From the IMG/VR virus record IMGVR_UViG_3300046007_002960, positions 1 to 28,361 of that record: a stretch of DNA of 28,361 nucleotides; one strand, 5' to 3'. A program made the translations under genes and the position numbers. The stretch is from a virus. Within the stretch, counting starts at the first letter, position 1. Each line of letters opens with the position of its first letter. This document shows, in pieces, positions 14,552 through 24,907 of this stretch. A model generated the notes under the pieces. The model was not told the origin of the DNA. It did no database searches and worked only from the letters and a program-made list of their open reading frames with translations.

Positions 14552-15385
14552 CTATATTCGGTTCTCTACTGAGCCAATTTTTAGCACACCTTGAGTAATC
14601 TGGAACCCAGATGCGGTGTATAAGTAGAAAGAGTTGACATACTCTTGTCCAAATAGAATCTTAATAAAGTCACCGACTGAACTACTTACCGTCTGCAATG
14701 AGGCAGATCCGGTCAACTGATATATTTGATTATCAACAAGGGAAAGAACTCTTTCACCCTCTTGAAGTAGGTGATTGTCGATATACAAGTTGTCTCCGCT
14801 TATTAATGAGGCGGAGGTAAACATAGATAGGGATGCTGTTGTAGCCGCCGAAACATCGTAAGTAAATCTTGACTGAGAGCCAAATGGCTGGTAGACGCTA
14901 TTTGTTAACGAAGACCTATAGTTATCTTCCTGTGTATCTATTAAATTTAGAGAAAATGAGGCGGAGTCAGATACTCTTAAAGTTTTATTTCCAGCACCTG
15001 TAAACTCCTGATGAAGATACTCTACTGACTCAGCATTCAGAGTATTTTCTAAGATATAGGTATTCTGAATATTGAAGTTACTAGAAGCAGTATCGCCAAA
15101 TCTAATTAGGAAGTTATATCTATCGTAGGTTGCTAGTTTATCGTCAAAGGAGAGGGTGAGGTGAGCCCATTTTTCTGAGGGTAGCGTCGACCCAGATACG
15201 CCATTGACATAGCAAGATACTGAGGCGGTAGGGTATAAAAGTTGTCCCGTTGAATTATTTACTTGAGCCTTGAATAAAGATACATAGGCGGCAGAAGATG
15301 AGAAGACTTCAAATATATTATAGGTCTTATCCTCTGAGTCATTTAATCTAATAAAGCATCCGATTGATCCTAGATATTTAATCAT
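14552..15385 (-). CDS. LamG/concanavalin-like domain protein (virion-associated, predicted)
   Basis: A 277-residue, Ser/Thr/Tyr-rich, mostly beta protein. Residues about 5-120 show the pattern of a concanavalin/LamG jelly roll: short strands ending in KWAHLTLSFDD (residues 72-82), then a segment describing NFLIRFGDTASSNFNIQNTYILE. The C-terminal part (residues 125-277) has further repeated beta strands with many Ser-rich turns. Such domains on phage virions often bind glycans and may decorate capsid or tail. It sits between the accessory cassette and the portal gene, and its ATG follows the exact TATAATATAA decamer by 5 nt with no Shine-Dalgarno. There is no signal peptide or catalytic motif. 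The fold is assigned from pattern and is not certain. Confidence 0.6.
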   Translation of the reverse strand: MIKYLGSIGCFIRLNDSEDKTYNIFEVFSSSAAYVSLFKAQVNNSTGQLLYPTASVSCYVNGVSGSTLPSEKWAHLTLSFDDKLATYDRYNFLIRFGDTASSNFNIQNTYILENTLNAESVEYLHQEFTGAGNKTLRVSDSASFSLNLIDTQEDNYRSSLTNSVYQPFGSQSRFTYDVSAATTASLSMFTSASLISGDNLYIDNHLLQEGERVLSLVDNQIYQLTGSASLQTVSSSVGDFIKILFGQEYVNSFYLYTASGFQITQGVLKIGSVENRI

Positions 15386-15405: not shown

Positions 15406-16107
15406 CTAATTATATTCTTTTTTTTGCCACATGCTATTTTTATAAAAACCAATGAATTTTTTTAACTGTATTGACATTTTCTTTTTTGTTAGAGCCTCAT
15501 CATACTCATGTACTTCATTGACCCATTTTTCTCTTTTTATAGGGATAATTTGATACATTGGTGTTCCTGCTGGTATTAATCCGCTGAATCCTTTTTTTAC
15601 ATAAAATGGTAAATTTCCAAAGATTGCATGATTATATATGTCTGAATCTATTATTCCTGTTAAAGTATAAAATGGCAAGTCTGCCCTATTCAATGGGTGG
15701 GTCACTATTGAACTAAACCCTTTTGGCGTTTTAATTATATATGGCATTTTCCAGATAAATTCTAAATTATAAAATTCATCACTATGGTAAGAAATATTTG
15801 ATTTATCTCTTAAATTAATTATTTCTGGTTGTGATGCATAATAGTAATTGACTGTGCCATCTTTATTTTCAATATATATGTCCGTCCAAGTTTTTTGAAT
15901 ATAACCAGAAGTTAAAGAATCTAAAAATGGCATACACATCTTTATGGATGTATCCATAATTCTCCCAGTAACGGGTGAAAATTCTGAATTATTTAAATTT
16001 ATATATTTTTTTTCTTTATACCATTCTGGAATAAAAGATTTTGCTGGTAGCGGAGGGTCTACTGTTAAATAAACATCTTCTGAGGATGGGGTAAATTCTA
16101 TTTTCAT
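15406..16107 (-). CDS. Conserved protein of unknown function, divergent from the halogenase cassette
   Basis: A 233-residue protein with no signal peptide or membrane segment. Recognisable stretches include DPPLPAKSFIPEWYKEKKY near the N-terminus, TSIKMCMPFLDSLTSGYI (about residues 52-69), a tryptophan/proline-rich middle (FIWKMPYIIKTPKGFSSI) and HPLNRADLPFYTLTGIIDSD. It ends with IPAGTPMYQIIPIKREKW, followed by a Lys-rich C-terminus. The PAGTPMYQIIP segment resembles the sugar- or metal-binding strands of cupin-like beta barrels, but I cannot assign a family; I recall related proteins near tailoring enzymes in aquatic phages without being certain. The start at 16107 has GGAG at 16117-16114 with 6 nt spacing, better than the ATG at 16119. 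It shares a 61-bp divergent intergenic region with the dioxygenase gene. Low GC, like the cassette. Confidence 0.75.
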   Translation of the reverse strand: MKIEFTPSSEDVYLTVDPPLPAKSFIPEWYKEKKYINLNNSEFSPVTGRIMDTSIKMCMPFLDSLTSGYIQKTWTDIYIENKDGTVNYYYASQPEIINLRDKSNISYHSDEFYNLEFIWKMPYIIKTPKGFSSIVTHPLNRADLPFYTLTGIIDSDIYNHAIFGNLPFYVKKGFSGLIPAGTPMYQIIPIKREKWVNEVHEYDEALTKKKMSIQLKKFIGFYKNSMWQKKEYN

Positions 16108-16168
16108 AAATATCTCCATTGAAAAAAAACATTATATCTGATACACTTTTATGGTCGAAAGGAAAAGT
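16108..16168. promoter_or_regulatory. Divergent promoter region
   Basis: This 61-bp region separates two divergent genes. On the minus strand it contains GATATAAT, with TATAAT at 16136-16131. On the plus strand a TG-extended TGATACACT lies at 16139-16147. Both would place transcription starts just before the Shine-Dalgarno of the respective gene (GGAG 16117-16114 minus; AAAGGA 16158-16163 plus). The two -10 elements almost touch, suggesting mutually exclusive or coordinated firing. No -35 match was convincing. Confidence 0.4.
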
Positions 16169-16798
16169 ATGGCTCAAATAATTAACGGGCTCTTCCCAGG
16201 TCAATTATATCCTGATACTACTGTTGGAGGATGTATTGATATCTATGAAAATGTCTGGCCTGATCCAGAATTAACAATAAAAATGCTTGAAGATTCTTGT
16301 GCCGATACAGAATCTGGCATTTCTTGGATGCGTGCTGAAACAATAGGTTCTGGTATTAATCAAAGCGCCAGGACTAACTATAACTTAAACGTAACACATA
16401 TGGCAGAGGCTACTGGAAATCAGGCTGCTGCAAATATTCACAATCAATTCTATACAATGCTTCTTGCCACTGTAGGTCCATACGCCAAAAAATATGGAAT
16501 AAATGAAACCTTCTATCATGAAAATTATAGCGTTTTAAGATACCGTGGTGGACAGCAATATCATGCTCATTATGATGGTGGAACCATGACTGGGAGATCG
16601 ATATCTGCAATTTGTTATCTAAATTCTAATTATGAAGGTGGAGAAATTGAATTTGTTAACTTTGGTGTAAAAATAAAACCAGAGCCAGGTATGCTTATTC
16701 TTTTTCCATCTAATTATTCATATTCACATATAGCACATCCAGTAACTGATGGAACAAAATATGCAGTAGTGACTTGGATAAGGGACAGAATACTATGA
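16169..16798 (+). CDS. Prolyl-4-hydroxylase-type 2OG-Fe(II) dioxygenase
   Basis: A 209-residue enzyme of the 2-oxoglutarate/Fe(II) dioxygenase superfamily, closest in pattern to prolyl 4-hydroxylase/PKHD-type proteins. The iron ligands are visible as His134 and Asp136 (YHAHYDGG) and His187 (YSHIAHPV), with Lys197 ten residues after the distal His to bind the 2OG carboxylate. The beta strand pattern AICYLNSNYEGGEIEF (147-162) and the ending YAVVTWIRDR complete the jelly-roll core. The predicted reaction is hydroxylation of a peptidyl or free substrate with release of succinate and CO2. The ATG at 16169 is chosen over the one at 16151 because AAAGGA (16158-16163) lies 5 nt upstream. It is the first gene of a four-gene plus-strand cassette, and its TGA overlaps the next ATG (ATGA). 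The substrate is unknown. Confidence 0.88.
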   Translation: MAQIINGLFPGQLYPDTTVGGCIDIYENVWPDPELTIKMLEDSCADTESGISWMRAETIGSGINQSARTNYNLNVTHMAEATGNQAAANIHNQFYTMLLATVGPYAKKYGINETFYHENYSVLRYRGGQQYHAHYDGGTMTGRSISAICYLNSNYEGGEIEFVNFGVKIKPEPGMLILFPSNYSYSHIAHPVTDGTKYAVVTWIRDRIL

Positions 16799-17412
16799 GC
16801 ATGGAAGATTTTAAAACTAAGGGATACTCCCACATCACTAATGCTATTAGTCCAGAACTAAGAGATTTTGTAACACAATACGCCCTATTTGATGAAATGC
16901 AAGATTTTTCTGCAGATCAAATGCAGGTAGTTGGGGCGCACTCTAAGTACGTTGATCCTGCAATGGAAGCAATGCTGCTACACCTCCATCCATTGATGGA
17001 GAAAGAAACAGGACTAAGTTTATATCCGACATATTCTTTTTATAGAGTTTACAGAAATGGAGACATTCTTCATCCACACAAAGATCGTCCATCGTGTGAA
17101 ATTTCTACAACTGTATGCTTTAATTATAGTTATGATGACTCTGAATATACCTGGCCTATTATTATGGATGAAAACAAAGTTGATATGAAGCCCGGAGATA
17201 TTGTTATTTATAGAGGTATTGACTTGGAGCATTCTAGAGAAATGTTCCTTCCTCCAAATAATGATTGGCACGTTCAGGCATTTCTTCATTATGTCGATGT
17301 AAATGGCCCACATTCATCATTTAAGTATGATGAAAGAGAATCAATTGGGGCATTAAAAACTAATGAAAATATTAAAAACTCTTCAACAAAAAGATATATT
17401 CAATTTACATAG
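16795..17412 (+). CDS. Second 2OG-Fe(II) dioxygenase
   Basis: A 205-residue dioxygenase different from its upstream neighbour. The iron-binding facial triad is His95-x-Asp97 (LHPHKDRP) and His146 (IDLEHSREMF), inside a jelly-roll recognisable from FYRVYRNGDIL, MKPGDIVIYRG and WHVQAFLHYVD. No residue can be assigned with certainty as the 2OG-binding basic residue; the Arg148 two residues after the distal His is one possibility. The start at 16795 overlaps the previous stop as ATGA, with AAGGGA about 9 nt upstream; a TTG seven codons earlier is less likely. The gene ends 8 bp before the halogenase start. Tight coupling to both neighbours argues that all act on the same molecule or in sequence. 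The substrate is not evident. Confidence 0.82.
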   Translation: MSMEDFKTKGYSHITNAISPELRDFVTQYALFDEMQDFSADQMQVVGAHSKYVDPAMEAMLLHLHPLMEKETGLSLYPTYSFYRVYRNGDILHPHKDRPSCEISTTVCFNYSYDDSEYTWPIIMDENKVDMKPGDIVIYRGIDLEHSREMFLPPNNDWHVQAFLHYVDVNGPHSSFKYDERESIGALKTNENIKNSSTKRYIQFT

Positions 17413-17419
17413 GGGAAAA

Positions 17420-19015
17420 ATGAAAACTGATTCTATAACAATTGTAGGTGGAGGATCTGCTGGTTGGATGACGGCTACCACCCTAATAAAAGCATTTCCA
17501 AATAAAAAAATATCGGTAGTTGAGTCTAAAGATGTTCCAATCATAGGTGTCGGAGAGTCTACAATTGGTGGTATTCGCAGATGGACTCACTACATTGGTC
17601 TAGATGAAAAAAGTTTTTTCCCTACAACTGATGCATCATATAAACTCAGCATTAAATTTACTGATTTTTATAAAAAAAATTCTGGATCTTTTCAATATCC
17701 ATTTGGAATTGCTGTTCAAGATCATGTAGATGAGAATCCTTACACAATGTGGTTTTATAAAAAATATTTTTTTCCACATATATCAAATACCGACTTTGTT
17801 GATTCTTTATTTCCATCATCTGCACTTTTTAATAATAATAAATTTTCTTTAAATGAAAATGGAGAGTTCGATAATTTTAATCCAGAGAGAGACGTAGCCT
17901 ATCATTTTGATGCTGTAAAGTTTGGAATTTGGCTAAGAGATTATTATTGTAAACCTCAGGGAGTTCAGCATATTGTTGGAACAGTAAGGGATGTAAAAAT
18001 TTCTTCTGGCGGAATTGAAGAATTAATTTTAGAAGATGGCACAAAAATAAAATCTGATCTTTATGTTGACTGTACAGGATTTAAAAGTTTGCTACTTGGA
18101 GACTATCTTAAAGAACCATTTATTCCATATTCTGATATGTTAGTCAATAATAGTGCCTGGGCGACAAGAATGCCATATAAGGATAAAAGCAAAGAGTTAG
18201 AAGGATATACAAATTCTACCGCTATCGACAATGGTTGGTGTTGGAATATTCCTCTTTGGTCAAGGCTTGGTTCTGGATATGTATATTCTAATGATTTTGT
18301 TTCAGATGAGGATGCATTAAAACAATTCAAAAAATATCTACAATCTAACAAAATGACAATTCCGAGATCTGAAAAAGATGTTGAAGAATTAGAATATAAA
18401 AATATAAAGATGCGTGTGGGGATACATGAAAGAACGTTTGTTAAAAACGTTGTTGCAATAGGTCTATCTGCTGGATTCATTGAGCCGCTTGAAAGCAATG
18501 GATTGTTTAGCGTTCATGAATTTTTATTTAAACTTGTAGATATATTGCAAAGAGGAGATATTTCTCAATTTGATAGGGATATGTATAACGTGTCTGTAAG
18601 AGATACATTTCATGGATTTGCAAAGTTTGTTGTATTGCATTACGCCCTATCTCATAGAGATGATACTGATTATTGGAAACACATAGCCAACAAGTCTTTT
18701 CAAGATAGATACGGAGATCCATATTCTGGACTAATTCAGAGATGTGATGATTTTTATAGTCTGTCGCATAAATACTTTAGCGCCTGGGAGCATCCATTTG
18801 ATATGTCTGGTATAACATTTATTGCTACAGGAATGAACCTAAACATGATGAATGAAAACAGAATAAAGCATATTGAATTTACATTAAATCAAAACATTTT
18901 AAATCAAATACAAGAAAAAATTTCTTCATGGGAAAAAAGAAAAATAAGATGGAAAAATGCTGCAGACAAATCTCCAACACTTGAACAATTTCTATTAGAG
19001 AATTTTTATAGTTAA
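17420..19015 (+). CDS. Flavin-dependent halogenase (tryptophan-halogenase-like)
   Basis: A 531-residue FAD-dependent halogenase. The nucleotide-binding motif GGGSAGW is at 10-16 and GVGEST at 43-48. A lysine in SYKLSIKF (Lys75) aligns by motif with the catalytic lysine of PrnA-type enzymes. VDCTGFKSLL lies at 216-225. The diagnostic WxWxIP motif is intact as WCWNIP (273-278). SAGFIEPLESNGLF, with Glu358/Ser359, corresponds to the active-site/flavin-coupling strap. Length matches the family. The enzyme would use reduced FAD, O2 and halide to make a hypohalous species passed to the lysine for aryl halogenation; no flavin reductase gene is in the window, so FADH2 must come from the host. AGGGG at 17411-17415 sets the start at 17420. 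A cyanophage halogenase (VirX1, from phage Syn10) is a known precedent and prefers iodide. The native substrate and halide are unknown here. Confidence 0.92.
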   Translation: MKTDSITIVGGGSAGWMTATTLIKAFPNKKISVVESKDVPIIGVGESTIGGIRRWTHYIGLDEKSFFPTTDASYKLSIKFTDFYKKNSGSFQYPFGIAVQDHVDENPYTMWFYKKYFFPHISNTDFVDSLFPSSALFNNNKFSLNENGEFDNFNPERDVAYHFDAVKFGIWLRDYYCKPQGVQHIVGTVRDVKISSGGIEELILEDGTKIKSDLYVDCTGFKSLLLGDYLKEPFIPYSDMLVNNSAWATRMPYKDKSKELEGYTNSTAIDNGWCWNIPLWSRLGSGYVYSNDFVSDEDALKQFKKYLQSNKMTIPRSEKDVEELEYKNIKMRVGIHERTFVKNVVAIGLSAGFIEPLESNGLFSVHEFLFKLVDILQRGDISQFDRDMYNVSVRDTFHGFAKFVVLHYALSHRDDTDYWKHIANKSFQDRYGDPYSGLIQRCDDFYSLSHKYFSAWEHPFDMSGITFIATGMNLNMMNENRIKHIEFTLNQNILNQIQEKISSWEKRKIRWKNAADKSPTLEQFLLENFYS

Positions 19016-19296
19016 TGAAAAAACCAGAGTTTGTCTCATCTATTCAACAAATGTTTTCTAAAAATTATTGGAATAAGGTCAATACTATAGAGTTTTTTGC
19101 TTTTATGACTAAACTTTGTATTATTTTTCCAGGACTATTATTTGGTCATCAATGGTGGTGGCTATATATTTTTGCATTAATTTCTAGTGTTGCTTTAATA
19201 TGGTCTTCTACAATAAAAACATTACCAACAATTATTTTATTTAATATAGGATGGTCTATTCTTGCTATTTTGGCAATAATAAAGTATTGGACATAG
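19015..19296 (+). CDS. Small integral membrane protein, three predicted helices
   Basis: A 93-residue protein that follows the halogenase with a 1-nt TAATG overlap, making it the fourth gene of the cassette. After a polar, basic N-terminus (about 25 residues) come three hydrophobic segments: roughly residues 27-45 (FFAFMTKLCIIFPGLLFG), 49-65 (WLYIFALISSVALIWS) and 70-90 (TIILFNIGWSILAILAI). There is no signal-peptide cleavage site or enzyme motif. It could anchor or export the modified product, act on the membrane independently, or be a simple lysis-like accessory protein. Coupling to the halogenase favours a cassette function, but no family is recognised. Its 3' end overlaps the convergent minus-strand gene by 32 bp. 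Confidence 0.72.
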   Translation: MKKPEFVSSIQQMFSKNYWNKVNTIEFFAFMTKLCIIFPGLLFGHQWWWLYIFALISSVALIWSSTIKTLPTIILFNIGWSILAILAIIKYWT

Positions 19297-19681
19297 TATC
19301 ATGCAGCCATGCCTCATCATCTTCTACCCACATTTTTTTGAGAGATACTGGCATACCTAACTCAATTGATCTTTTATATGCAATATAAGATGAGTTTGGT
19401 CCATAATAAGTTTCAACTTCTCCTAATCCTATCTTAAATAAGTGATTAGTAATCATATAAAATTCAGCATACGGACACCAAGCAGCGTATAGCCCCAACC
19501 CTCCGCCTTGTTCATAAATAACTTCCCAAATATCAATGTCTTCTATTTGCAAAGGTCTTAAATAATCCCATTTTTTTGTGGGAGGAAGAATAAGTTTGTC
19601 CGAATCTGACCAGTTAGGATCAAAAACTTCATCTTCATCAGACTTTGTTAATATATTGTATGTTGATTTAAAAAATGGCAT
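19265..19681 (-). CDS. Adhesin partner protein, copy 2 (unknown family)
   Basis: A 138-residue acidic protein, clearly paralogous to the one at 20689-21138. Shared features in order are MPxFKSTYNIL at the N-terminus, DEDEVF, a W-x-DSD segment, LPPTKxWDY, IEDxDIWEVI, GxYAxWCPYAEFYMI, ETYYGxNS and W-V-E near the end, finishing LLLPK versus LILP. It follows its glycine-rich partner gene with a TAATG overlap. The tight one-to-one pairing suggests a chaperone or tip component for that glycine-rich protein. There is no signal peptide or membrane segment. Its 3' end overlaps the convergent membrane protein gene by 32 bp. I believe related proteins exist in pelagic phages but know no function. Confidence 0.75.
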   Translation of the reverse strand: MPFFKSTYNILTKSDEDEVFDPNWSDSDKLILPPTKKWDYLRPLQIEDIDIWEVIYEQGGGLGLYAAWCPYAEFYMITNHLFKIGLGEVETYYGPNSSYIAYKRSIELGMPVSLKKMWVEDDEAWLHDTMSNTLLLPK

Positions 19682-20634
19682 TATGAAATTAAATACCTTA
19701 CTACTACTACTCCTGGCCCCCCATTTGTACCGCCAATAGTGGTATCTGGATATCCCATACCTCCTGCTCCGCCGCCAGTATTCGCAACGCCGGGGACTCC
19801 TTCATTTTGATTTCTACCTCCTGCTCCGCCGCCTCCAGGTCCTGGAAGTCCACCGCCCGCGCCTAAATAAAGGTTTCCTGGTCCATGGCTTCCTCCACCA
19901 CCGCCGCCAGCGCGAACAACTTCTGAACCAGTTATAGAAGATGATAAACCAGATCCACCATTTCCAGCAGCAGAACTAAGAGCAGGGTGACCATGATATC
20001 CAATTCCTCCTGGGTGTCCTTGTCCAGGAGTTCCATTTCCTCCAAATACTGGAACAGAAGCATTTGGATTTGTTGATGGAGTTCCAGCAGATCCTGCACC
20101 ACCACCGCCACCTGATGCAAGATTTCCTCCACCACCTCCAGAACCTCCTGGAGCGCCAGGTGCTGGTTGATTATATAATCCAGTTCCTCCACCACCTAAA
20201 GATATTATAGTGCTGAAAGTAGATGGTCCTCCAGAATTTGCTGGCTGTGCAATAGGATTCCTATTATGTTGAGAATATCCAGTCGCCCCTACTCCAACAT
20301 TTATTGGATTAGAAAAAGTATTTAAATTTAAACTTCCAGTTCTATAGCCTCCTGCACCACCACCGCCACCTAATGGACCAGAGGCTCCTCCACCAGCAAT
20401 AACTAAATATTCAACATCTAGAGATGACAAAGAATTTAAATTGAATGTAGAACTTCCAGTTGTTGTAAAAGTATGTATTCGATATCCACCTGCAGTTGTT
20501 ATTGTTCCTCCTGTAGGAAGACCAGATGTATTAGGATCTTGTCTAAGAAGTTCTGAAATTTGTCCTGAATTTTTTACACCACGATTTTCTGACTGTGGCC
20601 CAAAAGTACCTCTTATACTACTAATAAACGGCAT
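19681..20634 (-). CDS. Glycine-rich adhesin-like protein, copy 2
   Basis: A 317-residue protein with a conserved N-terminal tag MPFISSIRGTFGPQSENRGV. A beta region follows, containing GGTITTAGGYRIHTFTTTG and VEYLVIAGGGASG. A long glycine-rich body then runs to the C-terminus, with runs such as GGGGGAGG and GGPGVVVVRY at the end. Such sequences form polyglycine type II lattices in the receptor-binding adhesin of some T-even phages (S16 gp38), so a role at the fibre tip and in receptor specificity is likely. It is a paralogue of the 21138-22100 protein. AGGAGATATT precedes the ATG. An AT-rich intergenic segment of 54 bp with a 10-bp inverted repeat lies upstream. The stop overlaps the partner gene's ATG. 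Confidence 0.82.
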   Translation of the reverse strand: MPFISSIRGTFGPQSENRGVKNSGQISELLRQDPNTSGLPTGGTITTAGGYRIHTFTTTGSSTFNLNSLSSLDVEYLVIAGGGASGPLGGGGGAGGYRTGSLNLNTFSNPINVGVGATGYSQHNRNPIAQPANSGGPSTFSTIISLGGGGTGLYNQPAPGAPGGSGGGGGNLASGGGGGAGSAGTPSTNPNASVPVFGGNGTPGQGHPGGIGYHGHPALSSAAGNGGSGLSSSITGSEVVRAGGGGGGSHGPGNLYLGAGGGLPGPGGGGAGGRNQNEGVPGVANTGGGAGGMGYPDTTIGGTNGGPGVVVVRYLIS

Positions 20635-22108: not shown

Positions 22109-24907
22109 CTAGAAGTTAAGGTTAGCAGATCCAAGTGCAACATATGAAGATGATCTTCTTACTACAGTAAATGAAAATACATCTACTTTTCCTGATGTAG
22201 AAGTCGCAGTTGGAGTTACTCCAGCAGCCCATCTTATACTAGTTCCTGTGCCATTAATATTTAAAGTAGTTGGAATAACTCCTGATGCTGTTTGTGTAAC
22301 AAATGTATTAACTGTAAATGCTCTACCGTTATCTGTTGGAGCATTAGTTACATTAGCAGTAAAGTTTCCAGTAAATGAATTACTTACCCAGAATACGTTA
22401 CCAAGAGAGTAATCAAGAGTTACTGCGTTTGCTGACTGTGAAACATCAACAACGTCTTCTACCAATTCTTGAATTCTTACGCCACCAGTAAATGCGGGTG
22501 TTCCAGTAAAGATTGGGCTACCAGTAAATGTTGGAGCGCCTGCGACTGTTCCATTAAGTGTAAGAAGACCATTTACTGTAGCAGATCCTGTGACTGTATT
22601 ATTTGCGCCAGTCGCGGTCCATCCACCATTAAATGTTGCGCTACCAGTAGAAGTAAGAGCAGCGAGTGAAACGTTTTGAAGACTTGCATCTGCAGCCTGA
22701 ATGCTGCCAAGGATTAGGCCTACTTCACTAAAGTTTACTGTACTAGTTGGTTTAGTAGTAGCATCCTGGAAGAACTTAATAATAGAGTCAGATGCATCTC
22801 TCACTACACCAGCATATCTACGAGATCTTGTTCTTTGAGAAAGTCCAGATACTGAAGCGGTAGAAATATTTCCAAGCGCTTTAGCGTAACTAAACTGATT
22901 AGAAACTGGCACACCAGTAATAATGTAACTACCATCATATGATGCTGAGACTCCAGATACTGTAACGATATCGTTGATTGAAAATCCGTGCGCTACACCA
23001 GTTGTTAGTGTGGCTACGTTACTTGATAGGGTGGCTACTGTAATGCTAGCGGATAGAGTAGAGACTGATTTTCCATATCCTCCAACTAGACCTAAATCAA
23101 CTAGGTCATTAGTATTCGAATTACCAGCAAAGATTAGTGGGTCGTCAACGGCGAGGTTAGAAGTTGCAACTGTAGTTCCTTCACCACCGAAGGTAATTGT
23201 ACCTACAACATTAACATCACCCTGAATGTTCATATCCCCTTGGATTCCTACACCGCCAACAACGGTCAAGGCACCAGTAGTTGGTGATGTTGATGGTGTT
23301 GGAATTTCAATATGTACATTTACATCTGGGGTAATCTCCATCTGAGTAAGGCCTGAGTCGAAGCCTCCAGCGGCGAAAACAATCTTATTTTCTGAACCCT
23401 CTGCTCCTGTGGCAAACACCATGTTTCCCGTATATCCTGATCCCGCTGTATTGTGGAAGATATATCCGTCACCAGGGCCAGTAATGCCATAAATTTCATC
23501 ATCAAATTGTGACCCTGTAATACCCATTCCCATCCAACCAACAGAATCATCACCATTATCCATATAAGTAATAATGTCAGTTGATGAAGTAGGGTCAGTA
23601 TTTTGGAAGGCTAACTGAGCAAATGAAGATTCTTGAGTTCCCTCATCCCATTGAAATACGGCTACAGCATTTGTAAGACTACCTGTAGACTCAAAGTTTA
23701 CAGCGGAGGCCCCGACATAAAGTTTATCATTTGCAGTAAAGATATCTGCAGCAAGATCTGAGGCCCAAGATACCTGAGTTCCGTCTGTAGTTAAGAACTT
23801 CCCGGCATTACCATTTTGATCTGGGAATGCTCCGTTAGCAACAATTGACCAGATAGTGCTTGCTGATACAGGGTCGTTTCCAGTTGTTTCTGTAACTGCA
23901 ATATAAGTTGACCCACCATATGAAACTAAATCATTTTTAAGGTAGGCTGTTCCACCGTTATAAACGCCAAGCCAGCGAAAACCTTGAGTTAAAACATCCC
24001 AGAATCCTGTATTTGTGGGGGCATTTCCAGTAGTTGTACCCTTAGCAATGTAAAGAATACCGCCATATGAAACAATATCATTCTTTACATATGTCGTTCC
24101 TGATGAGTAGGCATTATTAAATTTAAAGCCTTCTGTAAATACTTCCCAGAATGATGTATTTGTTGGTACATTGCCTGAAGTATTATCCTTAGAAATATAA
24201 AGAATTCCTCCATATGATACAACATCATTTGCTTGATATGCACTTGCTGAAGAATATGGACCCTCAAACTGGATGCCATCTACAAAGGTGTCCCATGAAG
24301 ATGATCCTAGTACTGGATTAGATACAGATGCTGATTCAGTAGCAATATAGGCAGTTCCGCCATAAGTTACAATATCATTCTTTTGATATAAAGTTGATGA
24401 ATTGAATACACCTTTATAGTCTAGTCCTGGTACAAATTGATCCCAGTATGAAGCAGAAGTAGGGACATTGCCACTAGTTGCACCAGTAGCAATATATGAA
24501 ATTCCGCCATATTTTACAACGTCACCTGGCTGGTAGTCCGTAGAATTACTGTAATTTCCTTCATACTGAATACCGTCAACTAGTTTAGACCAGTATGCGG
24601 AAGCAGTTGATGGATTTTGATTTGAATTGTCTTGACTGGCTAAATATACCTTACCACCATATGAAACAACTTGACTTAATTCATAATTTGTTGAATTATT
24701 CCAATCTCCTTCAAAATCGAAGCCGCCGAGCATTTTCTTCCAGTAAGTTAAGTTAGTGGGGACAACTGAGGCAGTAGTTGAATTGAATGTATAAACATAA
24801 ACGTTGCCACCATAGGCAACAACATCATTATATTCGTATGAAGCAGAAACGCTCCAATCACCTTGATAACTAAATCTAATCTTTCCTAGATCAATTAATT
24901 GTGCCAT
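22109..24907 (-). CDS. Tail fibre protein with seven tandem aromatic-rich repeats
   Basis: A 932-residue fibre. Residues 10-359 hold seven repeats of 49-53 residues, each with Tyr in the first strand, a ND(V/I)V-x-YGG core, and a closing FW/YW or SxW segment, similar in plan to carbohydrate-binding modules of the CBM5/12 type. The middle (residues about 360-560) contains Gly/Asp-rich beta sequence and the segment LTVVGGVGIQGDMNIQGDVNV. Residues 639-672 contain HGFSINDIVTVSGV, a motif seen in many aquatic phage fibres. A trimerising-type shaft follows, with repeated Thr/Gly/Phe strings (TFTGSPIFTG). The C-terminus has IRWAAGVTPTATSTSGKVDVFSF, again typical of marine phage fibres. GGAGG is 11 nt before the ATG. 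It should bind the host surface together with the downstream glycine-rich proteins. Confidence 0.85.
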   Translation of the reverse strand: MAQLIDLGKIRFSYQGDWSVSASYEYNDVVAYGGNVYVYTFNSTTASVVPTNLTYWKKMLGGFDFEGDWNNSTNYELSQVVSYGGKVYLASQDNSNQNPSTASAYWSKLVDGIQYEGNYSNSTDYQPGDVVKYGGISYIATGATSGNVPTSASYWDQFVPGLDYKGVFNSSTLYQKNDIVTYGGTAYIATESASVSNPVLGSSSWDTFVDGIQFEGPYSSASAYQANDVVSYGGILYISKDNTSGNVPTNTSFWEVFTEGFKFNNAYSSGTTYVKNDIVSYGGILYIAKGTTTGNAPTNTGFWDVLTQGFRWLGVYNGGTAYLKNDLVSYGGSTYIAVTETTGNDPVSASTIWSIVANGAFPDQNGNAGKFLTTDGTQVSWASDLAADIFTANDKLYVGASAVNFESTGSLTNAVAVFQWDEGTQESSFAQLAFQNTDPTSSTDIITYMDNGDDSVGWMGMGITGSQFDDEIYGITGPGDGYIFHNTAGSGYTGNMVFATGAEGSENKIVFAAGGFDSGLTQMEITPDVNVHIEIPTPSTSPTTGALTVVGGVGIQGDMNIQGDVNVVGTITFGGEGTTVATSNLAVDDPLIFAGNSNTNDLVDLGLVGGYGKSVSTLSASITVATLSSNVATLTTGVAHGFSINDIVTVSGVSASYDGSYIITGVPVSNQFSYAKALGNISTASVSGLSQRTRSRRYAGVVRDASDSIIKFFQDATTKPTSTVNFSEVGLILGSIQAADASLQNVSLAALTSTGSATFNGGWTATGANNTVTGSATVNGLLTLNGTVAGAPTFTGSPIFTGTPAFTGGVRIQELVEDVVDVSQSANAVTLDYSLGNVFWVSNSFTGNFTANVTNAPTDNGRAFTVNTFVTQTASGVIPTTLNINGTGTSIRWAAGVTPTATSTSGKVDVFSFTVVRRSSSYVALGSANLNF
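23831..24880 (-). repeat. Seven tandem ~150-bp coding repeats (CBM-like)
   Basis: Seven consecutive units of 49-53 codons within the fibre gene, starting at residues 10, 63, 113, 162, 212, 261 and 310. Each encodes the sequence order aromatic strand, NDVVSYGG-like core, Y-I-A/S strand, N-P/V-P turn and a closing tryptophan. The fifth and sixth units are the most alike. Confidence 0.85.

Follow-up and report, generated by a model that had tools for sequence, protein, structure and literature searches.

Analyzing a stretch of viral DNA of 28,361 nucleotides (IMG/VR virus record IMGVR_UViG_3300046007_002960, a complete 28-kb record that is probably a genome fragment; we call this whole stretch the window), we found that a four-gene cassette at positions 16169-19296 pairs a predicted halogenase (HAL) with a small membrane protein (TM) whose relatives recur beside halogenases in many other viruses, and that two oxygenase-like genes (OX1 and OX2) accompany this pair. 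We interpret the cassette, with moderate confidence, as a swappable enzyme island at an adhesin locus, composed of HAL and TM as a functional pair and of OX1 and OX2 as a second module; within this reading, the part we consider likely is a joint function of HAL and TM.

The link between HAL and TM emerged from viral scans seeded by TM alone, which returned 244 relatives, with the TM of contig L168 serving as a second seed (the two samples partly overlap). Counting distances over non-redundant, non-edge places, with TM detected in six frames, a TM of the window's type had a halogenase no more than 400 bp away in 42/49 places with the window seed and in 34/46 with the L168 seed; for a sister family (about 117 aa, with an extra N-terminal helix, 367 viral loci) the count was 3/69. 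The two genes were immediate neighbors in 38/45 and 35/48 cases, against 4.3 and 5.2 expected under random placement among the open reading frames of each locus. Same-strand adjacent pairs occurred in both orders (41 with HAL first, 11 with TM first), short overlaps being the commonest junction. Among 50 pairs of HAL and TM, mean identity was 72% for TM and 39% for HAL, with TM the more alike in 98% of comparisons; TM is still about 66% identical where its partner halogenases share less than 25%, and the halogenases that TM accompanies can be only 21% alike. Mapping the TM label onto a tree of 124 halogenases requires 20 changes, at least 15 of them forced by well-supported branches. Since a near-constant TM stands beside very different halogenases, these patterns suggest that TM performs a service common to many halogenases rather than one specific to a substrate. 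A sequence-only reading of the window had left the small membrane protein incidental, yet of the other cassette genes TM is the one most strongly linked to the halogenase. One frame in L396 (4840-6285) was considered as a clean HAL-TM fusion and rejected: it is an internally deleted halogenase frame running into an intact TM, either through decay or through chimeric assembly.

Evaluating the enzymes themselves, we assign HAL by its sequence to the flavin-dependent halogenases of the VirX1 type, with predicted catalytic activity. It scores 345.9 bits against Trp_halogenase (cut-off 21), its best solved relative is VirX1 (6qgm; residues 2-530 aligned, 6e-95), and it carries GGGSAGW, GVGEST, K75, WCWNIP and E355/E358; a scan seeded by HAL gave 379 confirmed viral relatives, from which 80 loci were kept, and in alignments of 89-119 relatives the dinucleotide motif GxGxxG, the active-site lysine K75, WxWxIP and E355/E358 are conserved. 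The preferred start is GGGGAAAAATG at 17420 over an in-frame upstream ATG at 17363. HAL is 45% identical to proteins of Synechococcus phages S-B64, S-H35 and Sf-CH11; its identity to the Syn10 halogenase region is 35%. OX1 scores 61.7 bits against 2OG-FeII_Oxy_3 (cut-off 27), a family of 2-oxoglutarate (2OG) oxygenases, and its iron triad H134-x-D136, H187 and 2OG-binding basic residue K197 are invariant in 21 relatives, as is the iron triad of OX2 (H93-x-D95, H144) in 15. OX2 has no match in Pfam; it matches phrog_3531 more weakly than phrog_2954, and OX1 matches phrog_3531 as well. PHROGs and many phage records call the family of OX2, phrog_2954, 'ferrochelatase', a name that looks wrong on sequence grounds, since an HxD...H triad like that of 2OG oxygenases is among the invariant residues of OX2. 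Across these alignments the catalytic residues of HAL, OX1 and OX2 are 97-100% conserved, and the ratio of nonsynonymous to synonymous substitution rates (dN/dS) of the four genes against their relatives is about 0.12-0.22 (0.13 for OX1, 0.14 for OX2), so all four are under purifying selection. The enzyme identities, intact motifs and kinship to VirX1 proposed from the sequence alone are thus borne out.

The four genes form intact, coupled plus-strand frames in the order OX1-OX2-HAL-TM within an actinophage-like structural region (Table 1), much as the sequence-only reading had described them: OX1 and OX2 share an ATGA overlap, and HAL and TM a TAATG overlap in which the TM start at 19015 overlaps the HAL stop. 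The gap between OX2 and HAL, earlier given as 8 bp, is 7 nt (17413-17419). As had been noted, every large neighboring gene is on the minus strand; however, halogenase and virion genes share one orientation in relatives L020, L016 and L018, and therefore the opposite strand is no fixed trait. Promoter-like sites were uninformative (32 found, 25 expected). A role in anti-phage defense was considered and rejected, as a defense search matched OX1 alone, to a generic 2OG model.

Table 1. Genes of the cassette and of its two edges in the window.
Feature	Position	Strand	Length	Description	Family match	Remarks
OX1	16169..16798	+	209 aa	2OG-Fe(II) oxygenase, HxD...H...K	PF13640 1e-16; phrog_61	
OX2	16795..17412	+	205 aa	oxygenase-like, HxD...H triad	phrog_2954 3e-44	
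HAL	17420..19015	+	531 aa	flavin-dependent halogenase, VirX1 type (predicted activity)	PF04820 5e-103; phrog_2928	
TM	19015..19296	+	93 aa	N-terminal helix and three membrane-length helices	no family in libraries searched	
DUF6065-like gene	15406..16119	-			phrog_7084 3e-39	divergent from OX1; left island edge; same place in L169, 54% identical
SMALL	19265..19681	-		partner gene of Gly-rich adhesin		right island edge; overlaps TM end by 32 bp
GLY	19681..20634	-		Gly-rich adhesin-like	PF21722 5e-12	variable between near-identical phages

Comparing the cassette with related contigs revealed that it recurs as a set of movable parts. All four genes occur together, with frames intact, in two other contigs: L169, in the order DUF6065, OX1, an additional oxygenase-like gene of 183 aa, OX2, HAL, TM; and L153, in the order TM, HAL, DUF6065, OX1, OX2, DUF6065. 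HAL, OX1 and OX2 occur without TM in at least four loci (L004, L167, L170 and L171/L172), OX1, HAL and TM without OX2 in three (L007, L020, L168), and most TM loci hold HAL and TM without the oxygenase genes. The backbones of L168 and L169 are near-identical to the window (portal 94-95%, a 107-aa gene 96-98%, the gene at 14552 93-95%), and their islands resemble it far less (L168 then L169: HAL 30%/40%, OX1 75%/75%, OX2 absent/66%, TM 68%/61%, DUF6065 49%/54%); in the flanks, the small protein is 50-57% identical and the Gly-rich adhesin aligns only partly, at 52-66%. The site is a hypervariable slot that takes in adhesin genes, and the cassette has been swapped between near-identical phages. 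The sequence-only reading had proposed a multi-step pathway from the grouping of the genes and had looked to synteny in related phages for support: the grouping does recur, but its parts are modular, with HAL exchanged and OX2 lost in a close relative, so what recurs is a HAL-TM unit combined with fiber-linked oxygenases rather than one fixed pathway. That OX1, OX2 and HAL act in sequence on one small molecule whose product TM exports is accordingly very improbable, the translational coupling in the window and the recurrence of all four genes in L169 and L153 being outweighed by the replaced HAL and absent OX2 of near-identical L168, by the many HAL-TM pairs lacking oxygenases and by the loci in which the three enzymes lack TM.

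The surroundings of the cassette place it in a phage whose portal is 52% identical to those of Streptomyces phages such as LukeCage and Karimac, a kinship from which an actinobacterial host is probable. The best matches of the cassette enzymes, unlike those of the portal, are cyanophages and other marine phages, such that cyanophage-type tailoring genes sit in an actinophage-like backbone at a fast-changing host-recognition locus. On the right, the GLY and SMALL pair is duplicated in tandem on the minus strand (19265-19681/19681-20634 and 20689-21138/21138-22100), which suggests adhesin diversification, and a 932-aa tail protein (22109-24907, minus strand) has a strong CBM_5_12 match (1e-23), consistent with a cell-surface adhesin. 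On the left, the DUF6065 family lies within 6 kb of 39/79 phage halogenases; a specific tie to the oxygenases was ruled out, as it is found near about half of the halogenases with or without them.

To summarize how these parts could act, the cassette would be a swappable island that joins two modules and occupies the hypervariable adhesin locus in a phage probably infecting actinobacteria. In the first, HAL would take reduced flavin (FADH2) from a host flavin reductase, together with O2 and halide, and make hypohalite at the conserved lysine. Halogenases of this family pass from reduced flavin, O2 and halide to hypohalite, then to the active-site lysine and on to an electron-rich aromatic; the active site of VirX1 is open, its substrate scope is broad and its halide order is I > Br > Cl, and a transplanted halogenase can make do with host reductases (PMC8407142). 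HAL may thus halogenate an electron-rich aromatic compound in the infected cell, near the membrane in which TM would sit. There TM would serve many different halogenases in the same way; most likely it would anchor the reaction to the membrane or transport a small molecule that they have in common, be it halide, substrate or product. In the second module, OX1 and OX2 would serve as 2OG/Fe(II)-type hydroxylases of the kind found in fiber-linked oxygenase islands, acting on the same compound as HAL or on the adhesin.

Turning to TM itself, the family has no convincing match in Pfam, PHROGs or NCBIfam, and 34/93 positions are invariant among 42 sequences. AlphaFold2 models built from 42 and 80 sequences (predicted local distance difference test, pLDDT, 72 and 78) have three helices of membrane length preceded by an N-terminal helix. 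For both models, VIA ranks SemiSWEETs first (4rng, Z 8.8 and 8.0) and the mitochondrial pyruvate carrier next (MPC; Z 7.3-7.4), above most unrelated rows; 73-80 residues align to these folds at Z 7.3-8.8, Foldseek gives E >1, and for helical proteins a Z near 8 can reflect a common arrangement. In place of the PQ motif of SemiSWEETs, TM has FPGL. We therefore describe TM as SWEET/MPC-like in its modeled fold and do not count it as a member of that family. The cellular relatives found are limited to two loci in metagenome-assembled genomes (MAGs), both nearer the sister type; the 369 and 198 genomes examined from the class and phylum of these two MAGs gave no further convincing match, no bacterial HAL-TM pair was seen, and the PF04820 matches in the two MAG genomes are distant. 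In a gammaproteobacterial MAG (L163:7929-9033), the neighbors of a TM relative are a polyketide synthase and a fragmented TauD-like dioxygenase frame, and the family may have a biosynthetic context in cells. The sister family (L246-L325, e.g., L254 and L274) has sliding-clamp and clamp-loader genes around it, and a halogenase is absent from most of its loci.

Several observations weigh against reading the cassette as such an island with a HAL-TM pair. By sequence, TM has no Pfam (PF03083) or PDB match that would make it a SemiSWEET homolog, and hhalign of the TM profile against bacterial SemiSWEETs gave a probability of 0.2%. TM was not found in records of cultured or characterized phages, although a low-complexity filter may hide hydrophobic queries there, and the window holds no flavin reductase gene. 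Many halogenases, VirX1 included, have no adjacent TM; conversely, some TM genes of the window's type have no halogenase in the contig analyzed, and these, like the sister family, would fit an independent role for TM.

Besides the fixed pathway, we weighed two rival explanations against the composite island, together with a more novel proposal. That proposal, which we hold only tentatively, is a two-component membrane halogenation system in which a shared, SWEET/MPC-like TM would supply halide or substrate to, or export product from, interchangeable and divergent halogenases, the halogenated compound serving phage competition or control of the host. Similarly doubtful is that OX1, OX2 and HAL hydroxylate and halogenate the adjacent tail adhesins (GLY, SMALL and the fiber bearing the carbohydrate-binding module), altering receptor binding or stability, with TM incidental. 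The island does border adhesin genes and varies together with them; halogenases with OX1- or OX2-type genes within 6 kb lie near a GLY/SMALL pair in 13/31 cases, versus 3/48 without (p = 3e-4); the cyanophage islands follow fiber genes; and in actinophage DSL-LC01 the halogenase sits after collagen genes. Against this, 29/35 TM-linked halogenases lie away from the pair, with no association between TM and fibers, and several are among replication genes (in L152 the order is DnaB, DnaG, TM, HAL, DnaE); GLY proteins have no tryptophan, though 9-12 tyrosines; and neighborhood alone is a weak argument at adhesin loci, which collect many cargo genes. Elsewhere, in L101, the neighbors of HAL-TM are aspartyl-hydroxylase, APS-kinase, DUF2061, nuclease and WhiB genes. 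From these contexts the oxygenases look like the fiber-linked part of the cassette and HAL-TM like the context-free part.

Less probable again is that the halogenase, oxygenases and TM are separate morons gathered in a recombination-prone slot, TM having a phage function of its own, e.g., at the membrane or in superinfection. The modular content would fit such cargo, as would the sister family, common in other phages mostly without HAL, and the solitary TM genes of the window's type. Yet adjacency of window-type TM to HAL is seven to nine times as frequent as placement at random within these loci would give, and it is seen in both orders and with deeply divergent halogenases.

Placing this island among known systems, cyanophage halogenase and 2OG-oxygenase genes have been reported before, without established function (PMC2984593, PMC3037559, PMC9964418), Fe(II) oxygenases are frequent in the variable host-recognition islands of marine phages (PMC3909814), and an actinophage halogenase has been described (PMC10611076); for the native role of phage halogenases, reviews give only speculation (PMC2984593, PMC10452541). 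Neither the TM family nor a HAL-TM pair was described in the open-access papers searched. HAL also hits the models of two flavoprotein maturases from its superfamily, QhpG and LodB, but its scores fall far short of the curated cut-offs (34.8 vs 240 and 28.9 vs 400 bits). These two maturases are a precedent for flavoproteins of the superfamily acting on protein residues. The SemiSWEET and MPC half-transporters are the nearest matches to the modeled three-helix fold of TM, and TM differs from them in lacking both similarity at the sequence or profile level and the PQ motif. VirX1 of cyanophage Syn10 (PDB 6QGM) is a full-length relative of HAL, about 35% identical and with the same motifs, and its gene is likewise one of a series of small genes that follow fiber-type genes; it differs in coming from a marine cyanophage and in having no TM adjacent. 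Closest in layout are the islands of cyanomyoviruses Sf-CH11 and S-CREM1, which likewise set a halogenase and 2OG oxygenases beside fiber genes, that of Sf-CH11 also holding an OX2-type 'ferrochelatase' gene. The window differs from them in its actinophage-like backbone, in the inversion of the cassette relative to the virion genes and in the presence of TM. With halogenase and 2OG-oxygenase islands beside tail-fiber genes already in deposited cyanophage genomes, what looks new here is TM and its link to the halogenase, a conserved partner that offers a new handle on where, and on what, phage halogenases act.

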